NCBI RefSeq assembly: GCF_900168015.1
Contig: NZ_FUYR01000002.1
Span: 62,001 to 126,000 of the forward strand
Direction: 5' to 3'
Length of the DNA: 64,000 bases
From: Daejeonella lutea
GTDB lineage: Bacteria > Bacteroidota > Bacteroidia > Sphingobacteriales > Sphingobacteriaceae
Part shown: piece by piece, positions 2,805 through 38,868 of the stretch
How positions within the stretch are numbered: position 1 is the stretch's first letter
How the letters are laid out: the number at the start of each line of letters is the position of its first letter
Translations under genes and position numbers: made by a program
Notes under the pieces: generated by a model
What the model was told of the DNA's origin: nothing
Database searches by the model: none
The model's input: the letters and a program-made list of their open reading frames with translations, nothing else

Positions 2805-2898
2805 AAAAGAGGAAGTGCGGCAACACTCCCTCAAAGGCTCGAATCAATTAAAAATTAAAAGCAATCGAATAGTTAATCAACCAAACCAAATCAAAATT

Positions 2899-5800
2899 AT
2901 GAGAAAAAATGTGTTTTTAGAACACCTGGGCAAATATCTGCCCGGTAGATTATTGTTGGCCATGAAATTAACCACATTACTCACACTACTTATCTGCATA
3001 CAGAGCTTTGCAAGCGGTTTTGCCCAGCAAAAGATAAGTCTTAAAGGTACAGACACAAGTATAAAACACTTGTTAAAGCAGATAGAACAGCAAACTGAAT
3101 ATCGATTCGTATACAGCAACAATGCCCTGCCTGCGGACAAGAAGCTCTCTGTGAGCCTCAACGATGCGTATCTGGATGAAGCTATGAAATCTGTTCTGAA
3201 GGAGACGAGTCTAACCTACGCTCTTAAAGAAGATAATTTAGTGGTGATTTATTCGACCAAAGGCGAATACAAAGATCAGGTGATTCGGGGAAGGGTAATT
3301 GACGAAACCGGAGTACCTCTACCAGGTGTTTCTGTAAAAGCAAGCGGAACAAACATTGGTGCCGTTACTGATGCAAATGGAATGTACAGTATCAATGTAC
3401 CTGATGGAATACAGACTCTTGAATTTTCGTTCCTTGGCTTTACTAAGCAGGTAGCTTCGATAAGTGGCCGATCTGTTGTTGATATCTCGCTTCGGTCGGA
3501 CACTCGTGCTCTGGAAGAAATCACGGTAACCGGATACACAAACTATAGCCGCGAAAAATCAACAAGTGCGGCAAGTGTAGTAACTGGCGATAAAGTCGCA
3601 CAGGTGCCTAATGCTTCGCTTGATCAGATTCTTCAGGGCCGGGTCCCGGGAATGAATGTCGTGGCAAGCTCAGGGCAACCGGGTTCGAGCGCCAGCGTTA
3701 CGATCCGGGGCCTTGGAACAATTAATGGCAGCTCAGCCCCTCTTTTTGTAATGGATGGCGTACCAATTGAGTCTAACTATTTCCAAACCATTAACCCTAA
3801 CGATGTTGAAACCGTTACTGTTTTAAAAGATGCATCAGCAAAAGCGCTTTATGGTTCGCGCGGATCAAATGGAGTGATCGTAATCACAACAAAGAAGGGC
3901 GCCGCGGGCAGAGTAAAAGTTGACTATAATTCCCAATACGGATTTTCAGATCTCACCCGTCCACAGTTTGAAATGATGAATACGGAGCAACGCCTGCGTT
4001 TTGAAGAAGAGATTGGACTTGAAACCGGCAGAACGATGGGCCCCGGATGGACATACTCTAAGAAAAATCCCGCATATGCCGGTAAAACAGCTGCTGATAA
4101 AGCACGTGCAGATTTTATTATCGACAGTATAGGCAGGATCAATACCGATTGGCGCGATATCTTTTTTCAGAAAAGCCAGTTTATGGAACAGCAGGTCAGC
4201 GTAAGCGGTGGTAATGAAAATATCAGATTTTACAACTCTTTAAATTACTATTACCAGGAAGGTGTTGCAAAACGTACCGGCCTGGATAGGTATGCGTTAA
4301 GAAGTAATGTCGATTATAAATCAGGAAAGTTATCCGGCAGTGTAAATCTTAATCTGGGTTATTCCAACTCAAGCTTTACCGAAGGTGTCGAGGCGACTGC
4401 CGTAGGATCATCCATGGCATCCGTGTATTATGCCCTTCCTTACGAATATCCATATGCTCCGGATGGAACTCTTATTCACCCGGGGAACAGATCTCAGTAC
4501 TCAATTTTCGACCTTCGCGAAGGTAGCCAGGGCTTGGAAAGGCTTTTAAACTCCTCAAATAAAACCGATCAGCTAAAAAGCATAATGGGGGCATCATTTG
4601 CGTACCAGATCATCCCTGAACTTAAAGCAACCACTCGCTTCGGAGTAGACTACAGAAATTCGACAGATCAGGCCTTTATTAACCCTGATTCTTATTACGG
4701 GTCAAGAAGCAATGCCAACACATTGGGGGGCAAAGGCCGGTTCGAAGAAGGGACCAGAAGAAACTTCAATTTTATTTCCACCTCTGGCTTAACGTTTAAC
4801 AAAACTGTAGCAACAAACCATGATTTTGAAGTGTCAGGATTCTTTGAATATTTATACAACAACTTTAATTCATTCGGTTTTACCGGTTTCGGAATTGATG
4901 GACGATTACCAGAAACACCTGCAGGGGTAACATCAAACGCAACCTTCCTGCCTTCCATTTCTGGATCTAAAACACGGAATGCATTTCTTTCATTAATGGG
5001 AGTTGCCCGATATACTTTTAATGATAAGTATACCCTTACAGGAAGTTATCGTCATGACGGTTCGACAAAAGTTGCAGAGAAGAACAGATATCATGGTTTC
5101 TATTCTGCAGGAGCCAGCTGGAATGCTAAAAAAGAAGAATTCCTGCAGAACTCAGATCTGATCTCACAATTCATTGTCCGTGCAAGTTACGGAACAACTG
5201 CAAGTCCTTTTAGCGGAGACTTCACCTACCTGCCAACATTTGGAAGTACGACTTATGGTGGTGTAACCGGTATCAGGCCCTTAACCCCAGGTAACTCTGA
5301 ATATGATTGGGAATACAGCGATGAATTTAATACAGGTATCGACCTATCATTATTCAAGAGCGGAAGGCTTCGCATAGTTGCTGATTATTATAATAAGATC
5401 ACCAGGAACTTATTTATAGATCAGCCACTATCTCCTCAATCAGCTTACACTTCATTACCTCTTAGTACCGGGAAAATGAGAAACAGGGGAATTGAGCTTG
5501 ATATCAACGGTGATATCATTGCAAATCAAAACTTCTCATGGTCTATGGGGATCAATGGTGCTTACAACAGTAACAAGATCCTCTTTCTTACTGACATTTC
5601 AGACATGGTTCTTGATGGTGATACCAGGGTTTTAAAAGTTGGTATGCCTATAGGTACTTACTATGCACCGGATTGGGCTGGAGTAAACCCAACAAACGGA
5701 GATGCGCAGTATTATAATTTGGATGGTAGCATTACCACAGTGTACAATGTAAATACACAGAGCAATACCAATTCGGGAAGCCTGTATCCTAAACTGACTG

Positions 5801-6258
5801 GTGGACTTACAACCAATCTGCGCTATAAAGGATTATCGCTTGGCGCTCTGGTTTCATTTGTTTCTGATGTTAAACGTTGGAATAATGAGGATTTCTACAA
5901 CGAAAACCAGAGGTTTGCAAGCAGCAACCAAACCTTGCGAATGCTTGAAGACCGCTGGAAAAAACCAGGAGATGTTACAACTTTGCAGCGATTCGATGTC
6001 CCAAGAAACTTTACTTCTAAAGATATTCAGGATGCTTCATTCCTGCGATTGAGGAATGTAAACCTTAGCTATTCATTACCGGAAGCACTGGTTCAGAAAC
6101 TACGTGTAACCAGTGGCGTAAAATTATTTGTTCAGGCTCAGAACCTCTTCACCCTAACCAACTGGCGTGGACTGGATCCTGAAAACAATAATGTTTATGG
6201 CCGTTTCCAGTATCCTGCAGCAAGGACTTACACCGCAGGTCTAAATGTTAACTTTTAA
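2899..6258 (+). CDS. SusC/RagA-type TonB-dependent outer-membrane receptor with STN signalling domain
   Basis: I start this 1119-residue protein at the ATG at 2899. A GTG at 2815 would put 28 polar residues before the signal peptide. The layout is: signal peptide to about residue 43; STN domain at about 45-115; carboxypeptidase-regulatory-like domain at about 120-205 (RGRVIDETGVPLPGVSVKAS); plug domain at about 215-325 (TIRGLGTINGSSAPLFVMDG); and a beta-barrel to the C-terminal phenylalanine. It imports bound ligand across the outer membrane using TonB energy. The STN domain is the part that signals to FecR. The gene is followed 11 bases later by susD. Ligand class cannot be read from the sequence; the peptidases downstream suggest a peptide. 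Confidence 0.95.
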   Translation: MRKNVFLEHLGKYLPGRLLLAMKLTTLLTLLICIQSFASGFAQQKISLKGTDTSIKHLLKQIEQQTEYRFVYSNNALPADKKLSVSLNDAYLDEAMKSVLKETSLTYALKEDNLVVIYSTKGEYKDQVIRGRVIDETGVPLPGVSVKASGTNIGAVTDANGMYSINVPDGIQTLEFSFLGFTKQVASISGRSVVDISLRSDTRALEEITVTGYTNYSREKSTSAASVVTGDKVAQVPNASLDQILQGRVPGMNVVASSGQPGSSASVTIRGLGTINGSSAPLFVMDGVPIESNYFQTINPNDVETVTVLKDASAKALYGSRGSNGVIVITTKKGAAGRVKVDYNSQYGFSDLTRPQFEMMNTEQRLRFEEEIGLETGRTMGPGWTYSKKNPAYAGKTAADKARADFIIDSIGRINTDWRDIFFQKSQFMEQQVSVSGGNENIRFYNSLNYYYQEGVAKRTGLDRYALRSNVDYKSGKLSGSVNLNLGYSNSSFTEGVEATAVGSSMASVYYALPYEYPYAPDGTLIHPGNRSQYSIFDLREGSQGLERLLNSSNKTDQLKSIMGASFAYQIIPELKATTRFGVDYRNSTDQAFINPDSYYGSRSNANTLGGKGRFEEGTRRNFNFISTSGLTFNKTVATNHDFEVSGFFEYLYNNFNSFGFTGFGIDGRLPETPAGVTSNATFLPSISGSKTRNAFLSLMGVARYTFNDKYTLTGSYRHDGSTKVAEKNRYHGFYSAGASWNAKKEEFLQNSDLISQFIVRASYGTTASPFSGDFTYLPTFGSTTYGGVTGIRPLTPGNSEYDWEYSDEFNTGIDLSLFKSGRLRIVADYYNKITRNLFIDQPLSPQSAYTSLPLSTGKMRNRGIELDINGDIIANQNFSWSMGINGAYNSNKILFLTDISDMVLDGDTRVLKVGMPIGTYYAPDWAGVNPTNGDAQYYNLDGSITTVYNVNTQSNTNSGSLYPKLTGGLTTNLRYKGLSLGALVSFVSDVKRWNNEDFYNENQRFASSNQTLRMLEDRWKKPGDVTTLQRFDVPRNFTSKDIQDASFLRLRNVNLSYSLPEALVQKLRVTSGVKLFVQAQNLFTLTNWRGLDPENNNVYGRFQYPAARTYTAGLNVNF

Positions 6259-6269
6259 TATCAAATGAG

Positions 6270-7676
6270 ATGAAATTCAAACATATAAAATATTTTCTCC
6301 TACTGTCCTTTGCAATAATAATGGCATCGTGCGATAAATTAGACCTGAAGCCAACCGACAGTATTGACCCTGAAAAGGCCTTCCGGACGGTGAGCGATCT
6401 TAATCAGGGATTAATTGGTGCCTATGCAGTTTTGGACTACACCCTGATGACTACCTCTGCTATTACTTCAGACGAAGTAAATATGCCAACGGAAAATACC
6501 GTGAGTAATAATGATGCTTACCGCTGGCTTTACAATGCAACAAGTGGATCTGTAACTGGTGCATATCTTGAATATTACCGTTCGATCGATCGCGCTAATC
6601 GTGTTCTAGCGAAAGTAGATGTGGTTACAGCAACTCCAGCTGAGGCGTCTTTAAAAGAACGTTATCGTGGAGAAGCCCTGGCAATCAGAGCTTATGCTCA
6701 CTTCGAACTCCTGCGCGGGTATGCTTCTGCCTATCAGAATGGCGGCCTTGGAATAGCATATATGAAATCTGCAGAAGTTAGCTACCCTGCCAGGGATCCT
6801 TTCGAAAGTGTCGTAGCAAACGTTAAGGCTGATCTTACCGCCGCTAAGGCTTTGATCCCAACAACGTTTACGGATAAGTCCCGCATTACAAGAACAGCTA
6901 TTGCAGCAATACAGGCACGGCTTGCATTATATGAGAAAAACTGGGCAGACGCTATTACCTATTCTACCGAAGTGATCAGTGCTCTTCCTCTCGCTTCACG
7001 CGCACAATTTCCAGGTATATGGACCGACGCGAATGAAAGTGAAGTAGCTTGGAAACTAAAAAGGAATGTTAGCGGTGTAGCCGATGGCTCACTGATTGGA
7101 AGCTTCTTTTTCAGGCAAACAGGTGGTATCGTTCTTTATGCTCCGGCATTCAAGTTAATTAACACGTTCGACGCAGTAAATGACGTTCGCTTTGCTCCGT
7201 ACATTAAATTCGATGCAACCCGCGGTGCCGGAAAATCACAATACCTGATAAATAAATATATTGGCGGAACAGCGTCACAACCGGGGCTTGCTGATATTAA
7301 ACTATTCAGAACTGGTGAAATGTATCTGATTCGCGCAGAAGCCAAAGCCGAAAGTTCAGCTGCTGTTGCTGACGGTGCATCAGACTTAAACACTTTACGT
7401 ACAAACCGGATAACTGGCTATGTGAATCAAACTTTTGCAAGCAAAGCAGACTTGATTAATGCTATTTACACTGAGCGTTACAAAGAACTGGCATTTGAAG
7501 GGCATCGGTTTTTTGATTTGAAAAGGAGAAACTTAACCATAGACAGGATTCCTGCCGATGCTGTTAATACTTCAGGCGCGGTGACTCTTGCACCAACCAA
7601 GGCACAATACAATTACCCATTGCCAGCCGTTGAGATCACCGTAAACAAGAACGCAGTTCAGAATCCAAATTATTAA
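6270..7676 (+). CDS. SusD/RagB-type surface nutrient-binding lipoprotein
   Basis: The 468-residue protein has a lipoprotein signal peptide ending in the lipobox MASC (Cys at about 21), then the SusD N-terminal pattern LDLKPTDSIDPEKAFRT. The C-terminal RagB/SusD signature follows, including the segments LFRTGEMYLIRAEAKA, ERYKELAFEGHRFFDLKR and a final NPNY. SusD proteins sit as a lid on the SusC barrel and capture ligand at the cell surface. The gene lies 11 bases after susC and the pair is surely co-transcribed. An intrinsic-terminator-like hairpin follows it, so downstream enzyme genes may be expressed at a lower level. Confidence 0.95.
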   Translation: MKFKHIKYFLLLSFAIIMASCDKLDLKPTDSIDPEKAFRTVSDLNQGLIGAYAVLDYTLMTTSAITSDEVNMPTENTVSNNDAYRWLYNATSGSVTGAYLEYYRSIDRANRVLAKVDVVTATPAEASLKERYRGEALAIRAYAHFELLRGYASAYQNGGLGIAYMKSAEVSYPARDPFESVVANVKADLTAAKALIPTTFTDKSRITRTAIAAIQARLALYEKNWADAITYSTEVISALPLASRAQFPGIWTDANESEVAWKLKRNVSGVADGSLIGSFFFRQTGGIVLYAPAFKLINTFDAVNDVRFAPYIKFDATRGAGKSQYLINKYIGGTASQPGLADIKLFRTGEMYLIRAEAKAESSAAVADGASDLNTLRTNRITGYVNQTFASKADLINAIYTERYKELAFEGHRFFDLKRRNLTIDRIPADAVNTSGAVTLAPTKAQYNYPLPAVEITVNKNAVQNPNY

Positions 7677-7680
7677 AGAT

Positions 7681-7725
7681 ATCCCGGCGAAAACCTGCAT
7701 ACCACAGGCATGCCGGGATCTTTAT
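7681..7725 (+). terminator. Terminator-like hairpin between susD and the enzyme genes
   Basis: ATCCCGGC at 7681-7688 pairs with GCCGGGAT at 7712-7719, with an inner CCTG/CAGG pairing. It is followed by CTTTATTTT. It sits directly after the susD stop codon. It could terminate part of the susCD transcript, giving more receptor than enzyme, or protect its 3' end. Confidence 0.65.
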
Positions 7726-7776
7726 TTTCAACATTAGGTACGCAAATTCAGACTTCCGACCTCAGTATTCCGATTT

Positions 7777-8871
7777 ATGAAGAGACTAAATATCCATCTA
7801 TGTTTCCTATTATGCTTCTTTATCCTCGGATGTAAAAAATCATCTGTTGCCTCTCCATCAACAGCCGCACCGATAAAAACCGTAGAAATCGACGATGATG
7901 CTGGAGGTGTCACTAGAATCGCAGGAAGGCCAGCTTCAATTGGACTGATTGGAGATTCCAGTAACGTGATAACACCAGTGAATGGGGGAACTGTCCTCAT
8001 GGGCGGTGGAAAAGATGTTGAAGCTGCATTCAAATGGATGATCGAACGAAGCGGCGGAGGTGATGTCGTTGTAATCAGAGCAAGCGGAACAGATGCTTAC
8101 AATCCATTTATAAATGAAATTGGCAAGGTTAATTCGGTTGAAACCCTAAAAATCGACAATCGTGAACTCGCGAATAATGACACGGTAGCAAACATAATCC
8201 GGAATGCCGAGATGTTATTTATAGCTGGAGGCGATCAGTCCAATTACATGAAATTTTGGAGAAACACGAAGGTTAATGATGCGTTAAATTACCTGTTGAC
8301 CGTGAAAAAGGTTCCGGTAGGCGGCACGAGCGCTGGATGTGCAATCCTTAGTGGATTTTATTTCAGTGGAGAAAATGGCAGTGTCGTATCTGAGGAAGCT
8401 TTAAGCGATCCGTACACAGGCAAAGTCACGGTTTACAATAACGATTTCCTGCATGCCCCTTTCCTTCAAAACACGATTACTGATCAGCACTATTTAACCC
8501 GCACACGCGAGGGGAGGCATGTCGCATTTATCGGAAGAATATTGAATGATTATAAAACACCTGCATTAGGCATTGCCGCAGACGAAAAGACTGCGGTTTG
8601 TATCGACAAAGATGGTAAAGCTCAGGTCTTTGGTTTAAGTAAGGCATATTTCATAATGCCCGATGGCGCTAAGTTGCCAGAGCAATTCATTGCGGGGAAG
8701 CCAGTCATCTGGAAACAAAATGAACAGGCACTAAGTGTTTATGAAATTCAAGCTTCCCTAAGTGGTGCCGGTTATTATAATGTAAGTAATTTTAATTCAC
8801 CTGACGCTACCGGTGGCAAATGGTATTGGTGGTGGACGGAGAATGGAAAATTAAATAAAAAAGAAAAATAG
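7777..8871 (+). CDS. Cyanophycinase-like peptidase (family S51), lipoprotein
   Basis: This is a 364-residue protein with a lipoprotein signal peptide (lipobox ILGC). The S51 features are clear. A glycine-rich strand GGTVLMGGGKDVEAAF comes first. The motif IAGGDQSNYMKFW follows; GGDQ is typical of cyanophycinases. The nucleophile elbow is GGTSAGCAIL with Ser185, and TDQHYLTR carries the likely catalytic His238. Cyanophycinases cleave the Asp-Arg polymer cyanophycin to beta-Asp-Arg dipeptides; relatives cleave Asp-X dipeptides. Lipidation would place it in the periplasm or on the surface. It is followed 4 bases later by an isoaspartyl peptidase gene, the next step of the same pathway. The exact substrate is inferred. 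Confidence 0.85.
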   Translation: MKRLNIHLCFLLCFFILGCKKSSVASPSTAAPIKTVEIDDDAGGVTRIAGRPASIGLIGDSSNVITPVNGGTVLMGGGKDVEAAFKWMIERSGGGDVVVIRASGTDAYNPFINEIGKVNSVETLKIDNRELANNDTVANIIRNAEMLFIAGGDQSNYMKFWRNTKVNDALNYLLTVKKVPVGGTSAGCAILSGFYFSGENGSVVSEEALSDPYTGKVTVYNNDFLHAPFLQNTITDQHYLTRTREGRHVAFIGRILNDYKTPALGIAADEKTAVCIDKDGKAQVFGLSKAYFIMPDGAKLPEQFIAGKPVIWKQNEQALSVYEIQASLSGAGYYNVSNFNSPDATGGKWYWWWTENGKLNKKEK

Positions 8872-8875
8872 CTAT

Positions 8876-9934
8876 ATGTTCAAAAACCTTCACATCCTCG
8901 GCCTGACTTTGCTCTGTGCAATGTTAGCCTCATGTTCGCAAACAGACTCATCAAATACAAGCTCAGCCGACTCCGGCACGAAATACGTAATGGTGATTCA
9001 CGGCGGAGCGGGTACCATTCTAAAAAGCACCATGACACCTGAGAAAGAAGCAGCCTACAAAGCAGCGCTTACCAAGGCATTGGAAACCGGCTATGCTGCG
9101 ATAAAGAATGGAAAAACCAGCCTGGATGCTGTAGAAGCAACAATCCATGTGCTGGAAGATTCTCCTCTTTTCAATGCCGGAAAAGGTGCTGTTTTTACGC
9201 ACGATGGCAAGAATGAAATGGATGCAGCCATAATGGATGGCAGTAATCTCAAAGCCGGATCGGTTGCTGGTGTCACCGTGATTAAAAATCCTATTAGCGC
9301 TGCCCGCGCGGTAATGGAAAAGTCTGAACACGTGATGATGGCTGGTGCGGGTGCTGATAAATTTGCAAAGCAGGCGGGCCTTGAAATAGTTGACCCTTCG
9401 TATTTCTTCACTCAGGAAAGATGGGATGGCCTACAAAAGGCGATCAAAGAAGATTCTACCAAGAGTGTACTGGACCATGGCAATAAGAAAACATATAAGC
9501 TGGGTACAGAAAACAAAGACTATAAGTTTGGTACTGTTGGATGCGTGGCACTTGATAATAAAGGGAATCTTGCTGCCGGTACCTCCACCGGAGGAATGAC
9601 GAATAAAAAGTTTGGCCGTATCGGCGATGCTCCCATTATAGGATCCGGAACATATGCCAACAACGCTACTGCAGCAATTTCATGTACAGGATGGGGTGAA
9701 TTCTATATACGCTCGGTTGTTGCCCATGACATCTCGGCACTTATGGAATACAAAGGCCTTGGCGTAGCCGAAGCCTCCAAAATGGTGCTTGATAAAATGG
9801 CTAAGCTTGGTGGTGATGGCGGGCTAATCGCACTCGACAAAAAGGGAAATATAGCAATGCCGTTTAACACAGAAGGAATGTACCGGGGAACCATCACAGC
9901 TGATGGGAAAATTGATGTTCAAATTTATAAATAA
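8876..9934 (+). CDS. Isoaspartyl peptidase / plant-type L-asparaginase (Ntn hydrolase), lipoprotein
   Basis: This is a 352-residue precursor with a lipoprotein signal peptide (lipobox LASC, Cys20). The N-terminal motif VMVIHGGAGT and the autocleavage site FGTVGCVALDNKGNLAAGTS are diagnostic of the plant-type asparaginase family; Thr220 is the predicted nucleophile freed by self-cleavage into alpha and beta chains. Family members hydrolyse beta-aspartyl dipeptides and asparagine. In cyanophycin breakdown this activity splits beta-Asp-Arg into aspartate and arginine. The gene lies between two cyanophycinase-like genes, and its stop overlaps the next start (TAATG). Both the context and the lipid anchor point to action outside the cytoplasm. 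Confidence 0.92.
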   Translation: MFKNLHILGLTLLCAMLASCSQTDSSNTSSADSGTKYVMVIHGGAGTILKSTMTPEKEAAYKAALTKALETGYAAIKNGKTSLDAVEATIHVLEDSPLFNAGKGAVFTHDGKNEMDAAIMDGSNLKAGSVAGVTVIKNPISAARAVMEKSEHVMMAGAGADKFAKQAGLEIVDPSYFFTQERWDGLQKAIKEDSTKSVLDHGNKKTYKLGTENKDYKFGTVGCVALDNKGNLAAGTSTGGMTNKKFGRIGDAPIIGSGTYANNATAAISCTGWGEFYIRSVVAHDISALMEYKGLGVAEASKMVLDKMAKLGGDGGLIALDKKGNIAMPFNTEGMYRGTITADGKIDVQIYK

Positions 9935-10788
9935 TGCTATTTCGTAAGTCTCTTGTCTGCTTCATAACAGGCTTTCTTTTTATAACAGGTGCATATTCGC
10001 AATCGAAAACGCCAAAGGGTAGTCTTTTTATAATTGGCGGAGGTACAAGATCTGAAGCACTTATAGCAGATCTGATTAAAACCGCAAACCTTGGCCCGAA
10101 AGACCACATTATAGTTCTGCCAATGTCGAGTGCCGAACCCGACACATCCTTTAAATACATTGCTGTTCAGCTCTCAAAAGCTTCAGGAAATCCCATTGGG
10201 AATCTAAATTTTGATAAAAGTACCGTCAACAACTCAAAATGGCTGGATTCTTTGCGGACAGCGAAACTGATATTCATCACCGGTGGTGATCAAAATCGTT
10301 TTATGAAAAGTGTGCTCAATACACCCGTCTATCAAGTAATTCATGAAGCCTACCAGAATGGGAGCACAATTGCCGGCACCAGTGCGGGAGCAGCTGTTAT
10401 GAGCCGCTATATGATCACGGGACAACAAGCGCTTGGCGACACTGTATATAAAGAAACTTTTGATAAGCTGTGGGATAAAAATATTGTTTTCGAGGAAGGT
10501 TTAGGGCTTCTTAATTCCGTCATAATCGATCAGCACTTTATAAAACGCAGCCGCTACAACAGGCTGTTCTCAGCCCTCAACGCCTACCCCAGCTTCGATT
10601 GTATCGGAATTGATGAAGGAACGGCAATTGTTGTTCATAATAACATCGCCACCGTATCCGGAGTAAGCCAGGTGCTGAAATTTTCAAATCCTAAGAAGCT
10701 TAATACAACTTCAAAAGGTCTGATAGAAATGGAGGACCTAAGGTTGGGGATCTACAGTAATGGTGACAAATTCCGCCTAAAAAAATAG
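9934..10788 (+). CDS. Second cyanophycinase-like peptidase (family S51), secreted
   Basis: This 284-residue protein has a Sec signal peptide (to about GAYSQ) and no lipobox cysteine, so it is probably soluble in the periplasm or exported. The S51 motifs are KGSLFIIGGGTRSEAL, FITGGDQNRFMKSV, the nucleophile elbow AGTSAGAAVMS with Ser150, and IDQHFIKRSRYNRL with His201. It is close to the usual cyanophycinase length. Its start codon overlaps the stop of the isoaspartyl peptidase gene by one base, indicating translational coupling. It differs clearly from the 364-residue S51 protein two genes upstream, so the pair may divide the work, for example between polymer and oligomers. Confidence 0.88.
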   Translation: MLFRKSLVCFITGFLFITGAYSQSKTPKGSLFIIGGGTRSEALIADLIKTANLGPKDHIIVLPMSSAEPDTSFKYIAVQLSKASGNPIGNLNFDKSTVNNSKWLDSLRTAKLIFITGGDQNRFMKSVLNTPVYQVIHEAYQNGSTIAGTSAGAAVMSRYMITGQQALGDTVYKETFDKLWDKNIVFEEGLGLLNSVIIDQHFIKRSRYNRLFSALNAYPSFDCIGIDEGTAIVVHNNIATVSGVSQVLKFSNPKKLNTTSKGLIEMEDLRLGIYSNGDKFRLKK

Positions 10789-10821
10789 GTTTGATTTGGA
10801 TCTTACAATCCAAAAACCTAT
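10785..10821 (+). terminator. Hairpin at the end of the cyanophycinase locus
   Basis: ATAGGTT at 10785-10791 plus TTTGGAT pair with ATCCAAA plus AACCTAT ending at 10821, giving a 14-bp stem with a 3-base bulge and 6-base loop. It starts inside the stop codon of the last gene. The T-run is poor (ATTGTATT), so terminator function is likely but not certain. Confidence 0.5.
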
Positions 10822-11007
10822 ATTGTATTAAGCATTACAACAGCTATGGATAAGCATAAAGCATGATCCTACCCAGCTGTTCGTTATGATCCAAAAACAC
10901 AGGATTTCTCTCTTGATTTTTTGAAGATTTCTTGAAGTAATTTAACTTTAAAGAAATAGATCCCTTGCCCCTATTTCTCCCCTTTTAAAATTCTTAAACT
11001 AACAAGC
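10822..11007. other. Intergenic stretch, nothing recognised
   Basis: AT-rich sequence between the locus-ending hairpin and the 11-bp repeat array. I found no gene or clear promoter. Confidence 0.5.
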
Positions 11008-11139
11008 CCGGGTTCGGGAACGATAGGAGAATTGTTCGTAGATGGTTCGATACACTTCCGGTACAGTTCCGGGATGGTTCCGAGACAGCTTCGGGACAGC
11101 TTCGGGAAATTCCCGAATGCGTCCCGGATGTTTGCCGCA
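11008..11139. repeat. Degenerate 11-bp tandem repeat array upstream of the DUF6266 gene
   Basis: From about 11041 the sequence falls into consecutive 11-base units: gatggttcgat, acacttccggt, acagttccggg, atggttccgag, acagcttcggg (twice, identical), aaattcccgaa, tgcgtcccgga and tgtttgccgca. Less exact units extend back to about 11008. The core is (a)cagcTTCGGG. The period is close to one helical turn of DNA. A 130-residue frame crosses the array but overlaps the DUF6266 start and looks non-coding. Confidence 0.75.
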
Positions 11140-11311
11140 TCTTTCTCCCATCTGGTACGAAGCAGGTATATACTATTTCCCTACGACTTTAGGCCGATAG
11201 TCGGTTGTGGCATGAAGAAGTTTGATAAGGGGAAATGTAACTTTTTTGGCGGGACTTTCGTTAAAGTGAAAATAGGCATTTTTTATTTTTTCACCAAAAA
11301 AAGTATAAGAT

Positions 11312-11962
11312 ATGGGACGACTAAACCGAGGCCCAAACGGCCCTGTATCCGGCAAGTTCGGAAGCGTTATTGGCAGCAGCTGGAGAGGAATCTACTACAT
11401 CAAAGGGTTGCAGAAAAAGATTAAGAAAGCACGAAGCCCGCTCCAGATCGCCCAGCAGAATAAGTTTGCATTTGCAGTTAATTTCTTAAAGCCTGTTAAG
11501 CTTCTTCTGGATATGGGATTCAGCAGGATTAACCCGGGCGGAGCTACGGGATATAATATGGCCATTAGTCATACAGTTCAGCATTGCATTAAGGGAGCAG
11601 ACCCAAATTACGAGATGGATTATGCCTCAATCCTTTTTTGCACAAAGGGTAAGCTTGTGATTCCTGAAAATATTAAAATGGAAACAGCAGGGATGCATTT
11701 AAAGGTGAGCTGGGACGTGAAAACGGGGAAATACTCCTCTCCAGACGATGCTTTAGAACTTCTTCTCTACCAGCATGGAACGAGAGAATTATATATACCA
11801 CCCGGAACCGCACGAAACAAAGGCGAACTGGTGTTTGAGCTAAGCCAACACTATAAGGGCGAAACGATGCACGTGTATATGTACCTGGTTACCTCATCAA
11901 TATTTCAGGCCAGAGAATGGTCGGACAGTGTTTACCTGGGCGAGGTAACATTCAGGGAATAA
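11312..11962 (+). CDS. DUF6266 family protein
   Basis: The 216-residue protein starts MGRLNRGPNGPVSGKFGSVI and continues with GSSWRGIYYIKGL and RSPLQIAQQNKFAFAVNFLKP. I recognise these as marks of DUF6266, a family abundant in Sphingobacteriaceae, often in several copies per genome, and of unknown function. No signal peptide or membrane segment is visible. The C-terminal half is beta-rich with alternating hydrophobic residues. The N-terminal region resembles phage or mobile-element structural proteins only loosely, and I would not assign a role. An 11-bp tandem array and an AT-rich imperfect palindrome lie upstream. A bidirectional terminator follows. Confidence 0.8.
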   Translation: MGRLNRGPNGPVSGKFGSVIGSSWRGIYYIKGLQKKIKKARSPLQIAQQNKFAFAVNFLKPVKLLLDMGFSRINPGGATGYNMAISHTVQHCIKGADPNYEMDYASILFCTKGKLVIPENIKMETAGMHLKVSWDVKTGKYSSPDDALELLLYQHGTRELYIPPGTARNKGELVFELSQHYKGETMHVYMYLVTSSIFQAREWSDSVYLGEVTFRE

Positions 11963-11998
11963 AAAAAAGGAGCAGAAAATTAATTCTGCTCCCTTTTA
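11961..11998. terminator. Bidirectional terminator between DUF6266 and DUF4382 genes
   Basis: GGAGCAGAA at 11969-11977 pairs with TTCTGCTCC at 11984-11992. An A-run lies before the stem and a T-run after it, so it can end both converging transcripts. Confidence 0.85.
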
Positions 11999-12015
11999 AA
12001 TACTGTGAAAGGAAA

Positions 12016-12777
12016 TTAGTTGATCGTAATTGTACCAAGATCTTTGGTAGAACCAGTGACCACAACGACATCATTAATCGTTTTTGGAACATACGGGCTA
12101 ACCGGCATAATTTCCACTTTGTAGCTTCCGGCAGCAACTCCCGGAAACCAGAATTTTCCGGTTGCGTCTGAAATCGTACCAAGTGTATCCGTTCCAGCGA
12201 TAGCATAAATTTTCGGACTGGATGCAGCGGGGCTTATTGTTCCGGTGATTGATCCTGATACAGCATTCGGTATCGCACGGATAACAGGTTTTAAGATATA
12301 TTTTCCATTACCTGTTTGAACGATTGACTTGGCTGCGTCAAAATCAAGCAGCATGGTGTACGCAACGCCTGCTTCCAGTGTCTCGTTAACCTTCAGCTTT
12401 ACACCTGATGACTGGCCACTGGGAGTTGTTAGAGGATAACTCACCCCATTAACCACGACGCTATTTCCGGTATCGTTTAGAACAAGTCTTACTTCCTTTA
12501 ACTGGCCGGAAGGAATATCCTGGGAAGCTATTAGAGTATCCTTTCCCATTCTAAATTTTAGTACATTAAATGGGTTAGCATTAACAGCTAACGTTGACTG
12601 CCCTTCGGATGAGATAATCTGAACTTCTTTCACACTCAAAAAAAGTGCATCATAAGCGCCCGGGCCATCAGTAAGCTTAACACTTACTTTAGTCATTCCA
12701 CTTCCGTCTTCATTCTTGTTGCAAGCACTAAGTCCGATTCCCAGACCTAAAAATGCTACAATTAGTAATTTTTTCAT
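12016..12777 (-). CDS. DUF4382 domain lipoprotein
   Basis: I start at the ATG at 12777, which gives a 253-residue protein beginning MKKLLIVAFLGLGIGLSAC with a lipobox cysteine at 19. Longer frames add 40 residues unlike a signal peptide. Residues of about 30-170 match DUF4382: VSVKLTDGPGAYDALFLSVKEVQI, where the D-G-P-x-x-Y-D-A pattern is characteristic. They are followed by a small beta-sandwich like carboxypeptidase-regulatory or SpaA folds at about 175-250 (GSITGTISP, GKFWFPGVAAGSYKVEI). It is probably a surface or periplasmic structural or binding protein of unknown ligand. It is transcribed away from the small lipoprotein gene at 12907. Confidence 0.82.
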   Translation of the reverse strand: MKKLLIVAFLGLGIGLSACNKNEDGSGMTKVSVKLTDGPGAYDALFLSVKEVQIISSEGQSTLAVNANPFNVLKFRMGKDTLIASQDIPSGQLKEVRLVLNDTGNSVVVNGVSYPLTTPSGQSSGVKLKVNETLEAGVAYTMLLDFDAAKSIVQTGNGKYILKPVIRAIPNAVSGSITGTISPAASSPKIYAIAGTDTLGTISDATGKFWFPGVAAGSYKVEIMPVSPYVPKTINDVVVVTGSTKDLGTITIN

Positions 12778-12906
12778 TTCATGTTTTTTTAAGGATGTAC
12801 CTGCATTGTCCAAAAACCTTGCCTTTCTTCGGGATATACATGCTATCTTTTGTTTGGCACGTATAATGCTCATTATGAACTTATAAACTAAACCCATTAA
12901 AATTTT

Positions 12907-13131
12907 ATGAAACGTTTAAAATTGTACTCTTATGTAGTCATAATGACTATCATCGGAATCACGACCAGCTGCACATCCAGCAGCACGACAGACGAGAGCA
13001 AGCAGGAAGTAACTGCAATGGACTCTGTATCAAAAGATCTGGAGAAAACAAATAAAGAACTTGAAGATGAGGCAAAGAAGGTTGAAGAGTCTCTCGATAA
13101 AATAGACAAGGAATTTAACGCGAAAAAATAA
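12907..13131 (+). CDS. Small coiled-coil lipoprotein (74 aa), unknown function
   Basis: The protein has a short signal peptide with lipobox TTSC (Cys at about 22), then a Ser/Thr-rich linker, then a charged helix of about 40 residues rich in Lys and Glu (KDLEKTNKELEDEAKKVEES) that should form a coiled coil. It recalls small Lpp-like lipoproteins by architecture only, not by sequence. The next gene starts 5 bases later, so the two are co-transcribed. Confidence 0.7.
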   Translation: MKRLKLYSYVVIMTIIGITTSCTSSSTTDESKQEVTAMDSVSKDLEKTNKELEDEAKKVEESLDKIDKEFNAKK

Positions 13132-13136
13132 TTCAG

Positions 13137-14084
13137 ATGAAAACAAATATTTTAAAGGTCAGCATTTTCCCACTGATAGTGGTAGCGGGACTAACATTAA
13201 CAGAGTTTCAGCCAGGTAAAGAAAATAAGGGTAATGGAAATAAAGGTCCGGAGCAAAAAGGCAATCAGGATCGTGGGCAATCTAATAAAGGGAACAGTGG
13301 TTCCGACAATTCCGGCAGGGGAAACCAGAACTGGCAAGGGAAGGCGGATAATGGTCAACCTAAAGGCAGGAGTGATCAGGGCAACGGCAGGAACGATGAT
13401 CAGTCAGATCGGGGAAACGGTAATGAAGGCAAAAACAAAGGAAATTCCCAGGGCCGGTCGGACGATAACGGAAAATTTGATAACGACAAAGGCAGAGGGA
13501 ATGACAACAAAAACATGAACGCCAATAACGGGAACGGCAACAACGACAACGGAAAAGGTGCGAATGGCAAAGGAAAATGGCGTAAAGAGAACATTTCCTG
13601 GGACAGAGATGAGAATGTACTATGGGGTTTTGACAACTATTCAAGCCGCAAACGTCCGAAGGATTTCAAAAAGGTTACTGTATGTCATAATACCGGTGAT
13701 AGTAATTACCCGGTTACGATTACGGTTTCGGAGAATGCGTTAAAGGCCCACTTAAATCACGGAGATCAGGTTGGTGATTGTACAGTGGATTATTCTGATC
13801 GCTGGCCGGCAAACTTTATCAGAACCCGTGAGAATGTATATAACAACTACCAGACAACCTGGGAAACTATGTCATATAGTGAAGCTCTGCTTCGCTTCGC
13901 TGCCGAAAAGTTGTTAGGCATAAAAAGCACGTTCCAAACGCAAAGGGCTACTTTGGCTCCGGATGAGATCCAGCGACGTGAGATGCTGATCATGGATCTG
14001 CAGAACAACGTAAATTCATTGGAGAATCAGTTGGCTATTAGCAGACAAAGGACGGCGGGGTTGAATATTAATATTAATCTGTAA
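13137..14084 (+). CDS. Exported Gly/Asn/Lys-rich low-complexity protein with CHNTGD-type motif
   Basis: This 315-residue protein has a signal-like N-terminus, then about 130 residues of low complexity (G, N, K, D, R, Q repeats such as NKGNGNKGPEQKGNQDRG), expected to be disordered. At about 178-216 comes a compact segment, KVTVCHNTGD ... VTITVSENALKAHLNHGD ... GDC. This Cys-His/His-x-x-His-Gly-Asp pattern recurs in secreted bacterial proteins, and I suspect it binds a metal or forms a disulphide. The last 70 residues look like a coiled coil. It may be a matrix or surface protein. It sits between a small lipoprotein and a giant adhesin. The disordered region makes homology searches unreliable. 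Confidence 0.7.
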   Translation: MKTNILKVSIFPLIVVAGLTLTEFQPGKENKGNGNKGPEQKGNQDRGQSNKGNSGSDNSGRGNQNWQGKADNGQPKGRSDQGNGRNDDQSDRGNGNEGKNKGNSQGRSDDNGKFDNDKGRGNDNKNMNANNGNGNNDNGKGANGKGKWRKENISWDRDENVLWGFDNYSSRKRPKDFKKVTVCHNTGDSNYPVTITVSENALKAHLNHGDQVGDCTVDYSDRWPANFIRTRENVYNNYQTTWETMSYSEALLRFAAEKLLGIKSTFQTQRATLAPDEIQRREMLIMDLQNNVNSLENQLAISRQRTAGLNININL

Positions 14085-37311: not shown

Positions 37312-38409
37312 ATGTGGCTCCAAAAATTATCCGTTATAAATTTCAAAAATTACTCTGAAGCTGAACTTGGCTTTTCTGAGACAGTAAATGCGTTTACGGG
37401 CAACAATGGGGCTGGGAAAACCAACCTTTTAGACGCGATACATTATCTGTCCCTCTGTAAAAGTTATTTTAACCCAATTGATAGCCAGCAGATCAGGCAG
37501 GGCGAGGATCTTTTCATGATCCAGGGAACGTTCAAAAAGGAAGAGAAAAATGAAACAATCTATTGCGGTTTAAAAAAGGCACAGAAAAAGGTATTTAAGC
37601 GAAATAAAAAAGAATACCAGCGCCTGGCTGATCATATCGGTTCCTTTCCGCTGGTGATGATTTCCCCGAACGACATCAGCCTCATCATCGAAGGAAGCGA
37701 AGAAAGAAGGAAGTTCGTCGACAATGTAATTTCGCAAACTGATAGTTCCTACCTGGATGAACTGATCGTTTACAATAAAAATTTGCTTAACAGGAATGCA
37801 TTGTTAAGGCAGATAGCAGTCTCTGGAAGGTACGATCCAGCTCTAATGGATATTTATGATCAGCAACTGATACTTTCAGGCACCAATATCTTCGAAAAGC
37901 GAAAATCTTTTATGCTTGAGTTCAGGGATATTTTCAACAAGCACTACCGTTACCTGAGTGAGGAAGCCGAAGAAGTTGAACTTGTTTATGATTCGCCGCT
38001 TCTGCAAAATGACTTCGCAAGTTTGCTGAAAAGAAATCTGGAGCGCGACCGGCTGCTGGAGAGAACCACAGCAGGTATACATAAGGATGAGCTTAGTTTC
38101 ACGATTCATGGCATGCCGATGAAAAAATTCGGCTCCCAGGGCCAGCAAAAATCCTTTTTGATTGCACTTAAACTAGCACAATACTCATTCTTGCATCAGC
38201 AAAAAGGATTTGAGCCCCTTCTGCTGCTCGACGACATTTTCGATAAGCTTGATAATAAAAGGACTACTAAATTGATGAAAATGGTTTCTGACAAAGATTT
38301 CGGTCAGATTTTCATAACGGATACGAGCAGAGACCGGGTTGAGAGTATTTTTAATGAATTAGGAGTGGAGATAAAAGTGTTTGAAGTGGAGAAAGGGCAG
38401 GTTAGTTGA
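37312..38409 (+). CDS. recF: RecF, DNA replication/repair ATPase
   Basis: This 365-residue protein starts at 37312 (MWLQKLSVINFKNYSEAEL). Walker A is FTGNNGAGKTNLLDAIHYLSL, the signature region SQGQQKSFLIALKLAQ is RecF-specific, and Walker B is LLLLDDIFDKLDNKR. RecF loads RecA at single-strand gaps together with RecO and RecR. The next gene, after a long repeat tract, encodes a DUF721 protein, a common neighbour of recF in Bacteroidota. Its promoter stands alone. Confidence 0.97.
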   Translation: MWLQKLSVINFKNYSEAELGFSETVNAFTGNNGAGKTNLLDAIHYLSLCKSYFNPIDSQQIRQGEDLFMIQGTFKKEEKNETIYCGLKKAQKKVFKRNKKEYQRLADHIGSFPLVMISPNDISLIIEGSEERRKFVDNVISQTDSSYLDELIVYNKNLLNRNALLRQIAVSGRYDPALMDIYDQQLILSGTNIFEKRKSFMLEFRDIFNKHYRYLSEEAEEVELVYDSPLLQNDFASLLKRNLERDRLLERTTAGIHKDELSFTIHGMPMKKFGSQGQQKSFLIALKLAQYSFLHQQKGFEPLLLLDDIFDKLDNKRTTKLMKMVSDKDFGQIFITDTSRDRVESIFNELGVEIKVFEVEKGQVS

Positions 38410-38868
38410 GAGTGGAGAGTTGACAGTGGACAGTTGACAGTTGACAGTTGACAGTTGACAGTTGACAGTTGACAGTTGGAGACGTACCTTATTGGAAATA
38501 TTCGTAACTTAATACCCCACTGATTACTGATTACTGATTACTGATTACTGATTACTGATTACTGATTACTGATTACTGATTACTGATTACTGATAACTGA
38601 TAACTGATTACTGATTTCTGATTTCTGATTACTGACACTGATTACCGATCACTGATTACCGATCACTGATTACCGATCACTGATTACCGATCACTGATTA
38701 CTGATCACTGATTACCGATCACTGATTACTGATTACTGATTACTGATTACTGACACTGATTACCGATCACTGATTACCGATCACTGATTACTGATCACTG
38801 ATTACCGATCACTGATTACCGATTACTGATAACTGATTACTGATTACCGAACACCGATTACCCAATAC
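38404..38868. repeat. Long 7-bp-period tandem repeat tract between recF and DUF721 gene
   Basis: The first part (about 38404-38478) repeats ACAGTTG in near-perfect 7-base steps. From about 38518 the unit is ACTGATT(A), again period 7. In the middle it becomes a 14-base unit, ACTGATTACCGATC, with TAACTGAT variants. It ends near 38868. There is no open frame through it. It differs from a CRISPR in having no unique spacers. The same ATTACCGAT words reappear at 39278-39322, after the DUF721 gene. Confidence 0.93.

Follow-up and report, generated by a model that had tools for sequence, protein, structure and literature searches.

One-turn 11-bp repeat arrays accompany DUF6266 genes across Bacteroidota and are candidate cooperative protein-binding sites

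Introduction

Short DNA repeats with a period of about one helical turn occur in several described systems. Plasmid R1 parC contains arrays of 11-bp iterons and is, in this, like the arrays described here, although ours are chromosomal and have a dyad. The phage proteins Apl (phage 186) and lambda Xis bind head-to-tail, with low specificity, to tandem direct sites one turn apart, as described in the part of PMC7498355 that deals with them. The operators of such recombination directionality factors share with our arrays the one-turn direct repeats, and an excisionase-like HTH_17 gene adjoins many of the latter; they differ in that here we saw no integrase, units are locus-specific, an inverted arm is frequent, and DUF6266 and lysis-type genes lie downstream, with the array tracking DUF6266. 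Tandem repeats of 11 bp in a promoter region are also the binding site of CarH (PMC9304148, in its account of this site). The MerR-type operators of CarH and CarA are therefore also tandem 11-bp direct repeats, but with three to five repeats and a TnnACA core in the portion of that source drawn on here, compared to up to a dozen units, many cores and an additional dyad in our arrays. RdfS and BldC form head-to-tail wHTH filaments on sites without a strict consensus, with one BldC protein per turn (PMC11963761, in the section on these filaments). One protein per turn is also what we propose for the array, a likeness by description to these proteins from Streptomyces (BldC) and Mesorhizobium (RdfS). 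Finally, REPs measure 20–40 bp according to the relevant part of PMC3733652; REPs and BIMEs resemble the repeat family reported below, element A, in their dispersed palindromic intergenic copies, whereas element A is 150–200 bp long and has an internal period of 11 bp.

Here we analyse an 11-bp array found before a DUF6266 gene in a 64-kb stretch of the Daejeonella lutea genome (the window), together with the regions around other members of this gene family. What is new is that a candidate operator of a known one-turn type goes with a gene family not described before and, among many relatives, with a lysis-type operon. Searching the literature, we found nothing on DUF6266 and no description of such arrays or cassettes.

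Results

A palindromic 11-bp array precedes a solo DUF6266 gene

An earlier note on this DNA had proposed a tandem array of 11-bp units before the DUF6266 gene, and this array is real. Self-identity at lag 11 peaks at 11024, where, in a 130-bp stretch, 74 of 119 positions carry the same base as the position 11 bp on; 11024–11153 is the top lag-11 stretch of the window (window mean 29.8, sd 5.5), and the maximum in 50 whole-window dinucleotide shuffles was 55 (mean 49.4). The units stay in register over a stretch that starts at about 11014 and reaches at least 11163, past the end at 11139 given in that note, and their proposed one-turn phasing is upheld. The degenerate 11-bp repeat also stands as described, but not its single TTCGGG core, because the units occur in two forms, TTCCGGGACAG and CTTCGGGACAG. 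This degeneracy explains why TRF reports only unit pairs (11051–11072 and 11084–11107).

The array is, moreover, palindromic, which the note had missed: direct units lead to a central dyad, the junction at which decaying inverted units begin (Table 1). The whole element spans about 11013–11185, with matches to model R1 on both strands. Its inverted arm has an inverted-repeat score of 13, with 43 of 73 positions complementary, and includes CTGGTACGAAGCAGG, the reverse complement of CCTGCTTCGTACCAG, a left-end motif seen in locus L063.

Table 1. Features around the 11-bp array in the window
Feature	Position	Strand	Evidence
S51 peptidase family gene, upstream neighbour	9934..10788	+	PF03575
Element A, dispersed palindromic, contains the 11-bp array	11013..11163	+	sequence-only model R1, E 1.9e-29; alignment A4
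Direct-array core, seven in-register 11-bp units, consensus GACAGTTCCGG (rotated)	11051..11127	+	lag-11 peak
Central dyad TTCGGGAAATTCCCGAA = TTCGGGAA-A-TTCCCGAA, 17 bp, perfect 8-bp arms	11101..11117	.	direct reading
Inverted arm, decayed opposite-orientation units, holds CTGGTACGAAGCAGG	11112..11185	-	R1 minus-strand match 11056-11185
DUF6266 gene, 216 aa, solo copy	11312..11962	+	PF19781, 110.6 bits, cut-off 23.4
DUF4382 / carboxypeptidase-regulatory-like gene, convergent, downstream	12016..12780	-	Pfam

The start codon of the DUF6266 gene lies about 130–300 bp past the array. Reading frames and three Pfam scans revealed neither an HTH_17 gene nor lysis genes next to it. The S51 peptidase gene upstream was present in only one of 20 genus genomes, that of D. 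lutea itself. This gene closes a series (2815–10788) in which SusC-like, SusD-like, S51-like (7777–8871) and isoaspartyl-peptidase-like (8876–9934) genes, these four assigned by eye, come first; the series resembles a locus for the use of cyanophycin or aspartyl peptides. Elsewhere in the window, 38404–38847 holds long heptanucleotide arrays (AGTTGAC x11 and ACTGATT x47).

Arrays are associated with the DUF6266 family

The family is present in 18 of the 60 relatives searched, and D. lutea contains eight DUF6266 genes, as expected from the multicopy character attributed to the family. Starting from 80 DUF6266 rows, we set aside two fragments of 33 aa each and a gene lying at the end of a contig, leaving 77 genes (66 first and 11 second in tandem pairs); L131, with too little upstream DNA, was then dropped from the first genes. 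Within 330 bp upstream, 39 of the 65 remaining first genes had a lag-11 score of at least 25 of 44, and 26 reached 28; among 144 control genes with an upstream gap of at least 150 bp, one scored at least 25 and none 28. None of the 11 second genes had an array. These thresholds (25 to 28 of 44), like the element A cut-outs, were chosen post hoc, with controls treated alike.

To this genome set we added 80 named loci, which are the best 80 of at least 485 confirmed relatives and lean to the subfamilies nearest the query, and one viral contig. The resulting 147 upstream stretches became 135 after removal of ten duplicates and two short ones, and 134 after exclusion of L113, which had passed through a run of N. 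Arrays were found within 650 bp upstream of 90 of these 134 first-position genes and, at the same threshold, of one of 141 genes in random stretches and six of 262 neighbouring genes of the named loci, among these six a gene that is itself DUF6266. When the DUF6266 proteins were collapsed at 50% identity, most members were array-bearing in 20 of 38 clusters, which shows that the association does not stem from repeated counting of a single clone. No array was detected by the lag-11 test in the other 44 loci. The only other lags in comparable excess were 10 bp, seen in 27 of 135 loci and mostly near −150, and 22 bp, a harmonic. For reference, lag 7 was the short period found most often upstream of control genes.

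The association is seen across Bacteroidota, and the suggestion that the array is a conserved partner of the gene holds at the scale of the DUF6266 family. The earlier note would have abandoned this suggestion if arrays were lacking before other DUF6266 genes and equally common at unrelated loci; they do precede other members, and they also occur in unrelated intergenic regions, albeit far more rarely.

The window array belongs to a dispersed element

Searching the D. lutea genome with the pattern (YCGG N7)x4, allowing one mismatch, produced 35 matches in about a dozen places, and none with the reversed control. Nine array loci of this genome, each read over 12 kb, had unrelated neighbours in mixed orientation, and a DUF6266 or HTH_17 remnant was found in none of the nine. 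Arrays without DUF6266 count against a strict pairing of the two. Model R1, built on 11 copies including that of the window, detected element A in five of 20 genus genomes, with at least five strong copies (E <1e-20) in D. lutea, four in its sister genome G003 and three in G010. The four copies in G003 are at sites orthologous to those in D. lutea, with genes in mixed orientation, whereas those of G010 have no flanks in common with the D. lutea copies compared. Alignment A4 comprises 11 element-A-like copies (seven from D. lutea and four from other lists; L066 was aligned separately and left out), which show preserved direct units and a decaying inverted arm. At the window site there was no orthologue for comparison, because the gene to its left was found only in D. 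lutea among the 20 genomes.

Several element A copies have a TTTAACTTTAAAGAAATA-like word about 60–100 bp to their left (about 10939–10960 in the window). Between divergent genes of L064 (about 6083–6409) and L070 (about 5877–6159) we also noticed two very long 11-bp arrays (more than ten units of the CTTCGGTAGCG type), which carry inverted arms and form a family distinct from element A. L133 (about 950–1080; G003:C7, about 227,200) contains an array with the units and TATGACAATTG junction of a DUF6266 subfamily, with no DUF6266 gene in the 2.5-kb stretch covered.

The multiplicity of element A, the unshared flanks in G010 and the lack of DUF6266 remnants beside the other D. lutea copies that were read would suit a dispersed repeat with no role here, a copy of which happened to land before a DUF6266 gene. 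We consider this unlikely: it leaves unexplained the arrays of other sequence at the 90 array-bearing loci, and the distance from array to gene in the window fits that of its own DUF6266 subgroup (L127, L130 and L108). The window copy, which belongs to a dispersed element and precedes a solo gene, therefore illustrates the array–DUF6266 pattern only modestly.

Period, placement and symmetry are conserved, and unit sequence is not

Unit sequence is specific to each locus (TTTACC, TTCGGGA, GTAAACGCGGA, CTAACTATATG, TCGTA and others) on a fixed period; what is kept between loci is the period, the placement and, often, the inverted arm. An inverted-repeat score of at least 11 was obtained for 58 of the 90 arrays and eight of 450 shuffles, and a score of 14 for 38 arrays and no shuffle. 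In eight Pedobacter orthologues, the copy number of the array varies by whole 11-bp units, and most retain the register, TTACC as the core and TTACCTAAAAGGTAA as the dyad at the junction. In the subfamily of alignment A6, TCGT replaces TCGG in two members, both in the inverted copy and in the majority of the direct copies; this paired change is within the range of shuffles (105 of 500).

Symmetry of this kind might reflect an RNA element, in which the transcribed array would fold into a long hairpin, with the 11-bp period of the A form, acting as a terminator, an attenuator or an antisense RNA. Indeed, many arrays fold better than their shuffles (mean z −1.94 and −2.02 for the plus and minus strands, on which 38 and 40 of the 90 arrays had z < −2), L202, L132 and L059 form near-perfect stems, and the solo arrays lie no more than 190 bp from the start codon. 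However, arm mismatches show no strand bias (126 GT and 116 AC), as expected for a site acting at the DNA level; the RNAalifold covariation term for the 11 element A copies was +0.06, with the inverted arm decaying and the direct array kept; and the one compensatory pair, that of A6, is the change just mentioned. For the window array, folding z-scores were only −1.28 and −1.70, and Rfam had nothing near gathering scores in 9900–13200. An RNA element is, in our opinion, quite unlikely. A type III toxin–antitoxin system, with a repeat RNA before the toxin, was weighed on its architecture alone and discarded; five DUF6266 proteins yielded no PADLOC match.

Arrays of solo DUF6266 genes are located at about −185 to −87 (24 loci) and those of many named loci, among the best 80 of at least 485, farther up, at about −420 to −200. 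The motif TANNTTTG, which we take to be the Bacteroidota −7 box, occurs between −130 and −35 in 65 of the 135 loci, with 7.9 expected from shuffles, which places the distal 11-bp array upstream of the core promoter in these loci. There was no excess of −7 boxes between array and gene for the 24 solo-type arrays (2 found, 1.9 expected). Two further motifs are far above shuffles, a proximal 10-bp array of the GTCAA type (18 of 135 loci) and a TACNNGTA palindrome (48 of 135). The region upstream of the window gene contains no −7 box, no TACNNGTA palindrome and no GTCAA array. The 10-bp array (GTCAA/GCTCA core) is at about −165 to −110, just 5′ of the −7 box, in L190, L229, L235 and L193; the palindrome, often ATACCGGTAT, is conserved shortly 3′ of this box, at about −70 to −40; and the GILG subclass of DUF6266 often has the 10-bp array without the 11-bp one.

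HTH_17 and lysis-type genes flank many array-bearing relatives

Among the named loci (again the best 80 of at least 485), a small HTH_17, excisionase-like gene was found upstream in 54 of the 76 with 3 kb of upstream sequence. In all, 66 loci had this gene, on the same strand in 65, and its end was most often 300–650 bp before DUF6266. Two of the encoded proteins, taken as examples, scored above the cut-off of Pfam and were similar to excisionases of phages (PHROG 4691 and 66).

Downstream, the 78 named loci with 4 kb of sequence, from the same best 80 of at least 485, contained genes for a CHAP protein (37), a small membrane protein (37), a lipoprotein (36) and a second DUF6266 (38). The first three occur together, and the order DUF6266, holin-like, CHAP endolysin, lipoprotein was seen in 37 of these 78 loci. 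The CHAP protein matches phage endolysins (PHROG 9589, 1e-17 and 3e-21); the small membrane protein and the lipoprotein matched no family, so holin-like and spanin-like are putative roles deduced from position and hydropathy. L190 (from Pedobacter suwonensis), L229, L180 and others exemplify a chromosomal operon of one or two DUF6266 genes, membrane protein, CHAP and lipoprotein, often behind HTH_17. We noticed no phage structural genes among the nearest neighbours of the DUF6266–CHAP operons, which look like a domesticated lysis module.

With excisionase-like and endolysin-like neighbours, and since excisionase sites are one-turn direct repeats (PMC7498355, in the part cited above), the array could be a recombination or integration substrate, with attachment-like direct repeats for a directionality factor, left as a relic of a phage-like cassette ancestor. 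We regard this as very improbable, because no integrase or transposase family recurs among the neighbours of 81 loci, whose recurrent clusters were read by eye, and because DUF6266 was not found in 50,697 phage records (two protein queries) or in plasmids (one query). In IMG/VR, a single contig contained DUF6266, and matches of its FN3 region in viral models span one common domain. A phage structural protein was likewise rejected as an identity for DUF6266, since five proteins gave only one weak PHROG match (E 0.031).

We also examined 17 relatives of the HTH_17 gene. The array was present in all eight with DUF6266 downstream and in none of the eight without it; the 17th also has an array, in a locus cut by a contig end. 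The array therefore tracks DUF6266 and not HTH_17. In 32 array-bearing DUF6266 loci, no HTH_17 gene was found in the upstream sequence covered.

A predicted FN3-like domain and a basic N-terminus in DUF6266

The AlphaFold2 model of the window protein, based on an alignment of 55 sequences (pLDDT 88), was used in place of a single-sequence fold, which was dropped (pLDDT 49). The predicted N-terminus is flexible, rich in Gly and includes a beta-hairpin; two helices and an FN3-like C-terminal domain complete the model. This modelled domain (residues 112–216), to which fold searches were effectively confined, aligns to FN3 with a VIA-align Z of about 10 and would be classed as an FN3 fold. The PDB held no sequence relative of DUF6266. 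Residues 1–42 have a mean net charge of +6.8 over the 55 sequences, with a minimum of +4, which is compatible with a nucleic-acid binding segment.

Discussion

One-turn spacing, short cores, changes by whole units, the dyad and placement before the first gene all fit a cooperative protein-coated operator, and the direct repeats are spaced 10–11 bp, as in one-turn tandem operators. We consider it somewhat better than an even bet that the array serves DUF6266 operons as a helically phased cis-regulatory operator, cooperatively coated by protein; by analogy with the systems above, the description as a candidate cooperative protein-binding array fits. A DNA-binding protein would take one 11-bp unit per helical turn. 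Coating would begin at the central dyad, where two protomers would meet head to head, and would then spread head-to-tail along the direct units. Occupancy would be cooperative and switch-like, and would control the adjoining DUF6266 operon.

Either DUF6266 or the wHTH protein encoded by the HTH_17 gene upstream may be the binder. The wHTH protein is a candidate because of its adjacency and of published precedent; DUF6266, because of the split among HTH_17 relatives, the 32 arrays without HTH_17 and the basic N-terminus. The window gene has no HTH_17 gene nearby, so its array would be bound by DUF6266 or by the product of a gene located elsewhere. In partial Mantel tests, unit type gave 0.10 with HTH and 0.27 with DUF6266, but distances of the two proteins correlate at 0.82, so HTH and unit types are inseparable from DUF6266 ancestry. 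In the 32 loci without a found HTH gene, unit type correlated with DUF6266 (r 0.44, a value not reached in any of 2000 permutations); inside single genomes, the correlation was not significant (r 0.33, p 0.126, 38 pairs). A more specific version would make DUF6266 paralogues locus-specific DNA-coating proteins, each polymerising on its own array through the basic N-terminus from a nucleus at the dyad, and thereby holding the lysis-type operon silent or releasing it in a single step; we think this doubtful.

For DUF6266, a family of unknown function, our results provide two strong clues: a dedicated upstream array and a lysis-type operon in about half of the named loci, which are the best 80 of at least 485. 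If the lysis reading is true, many Bacteroidota would have at least one chromosomal self-lysis switch, of which our literature search found no description. In addition, arrays that are locus-specific in sequence and constant in their one-turn period constitute a natural experiment in the co-diversification of proteins and their sites. Should DUF6266 indeed coat DNA, each copy in a genome would have a private address code, and the solo pairs and orphan arrays would take this system beyond lysis operons.
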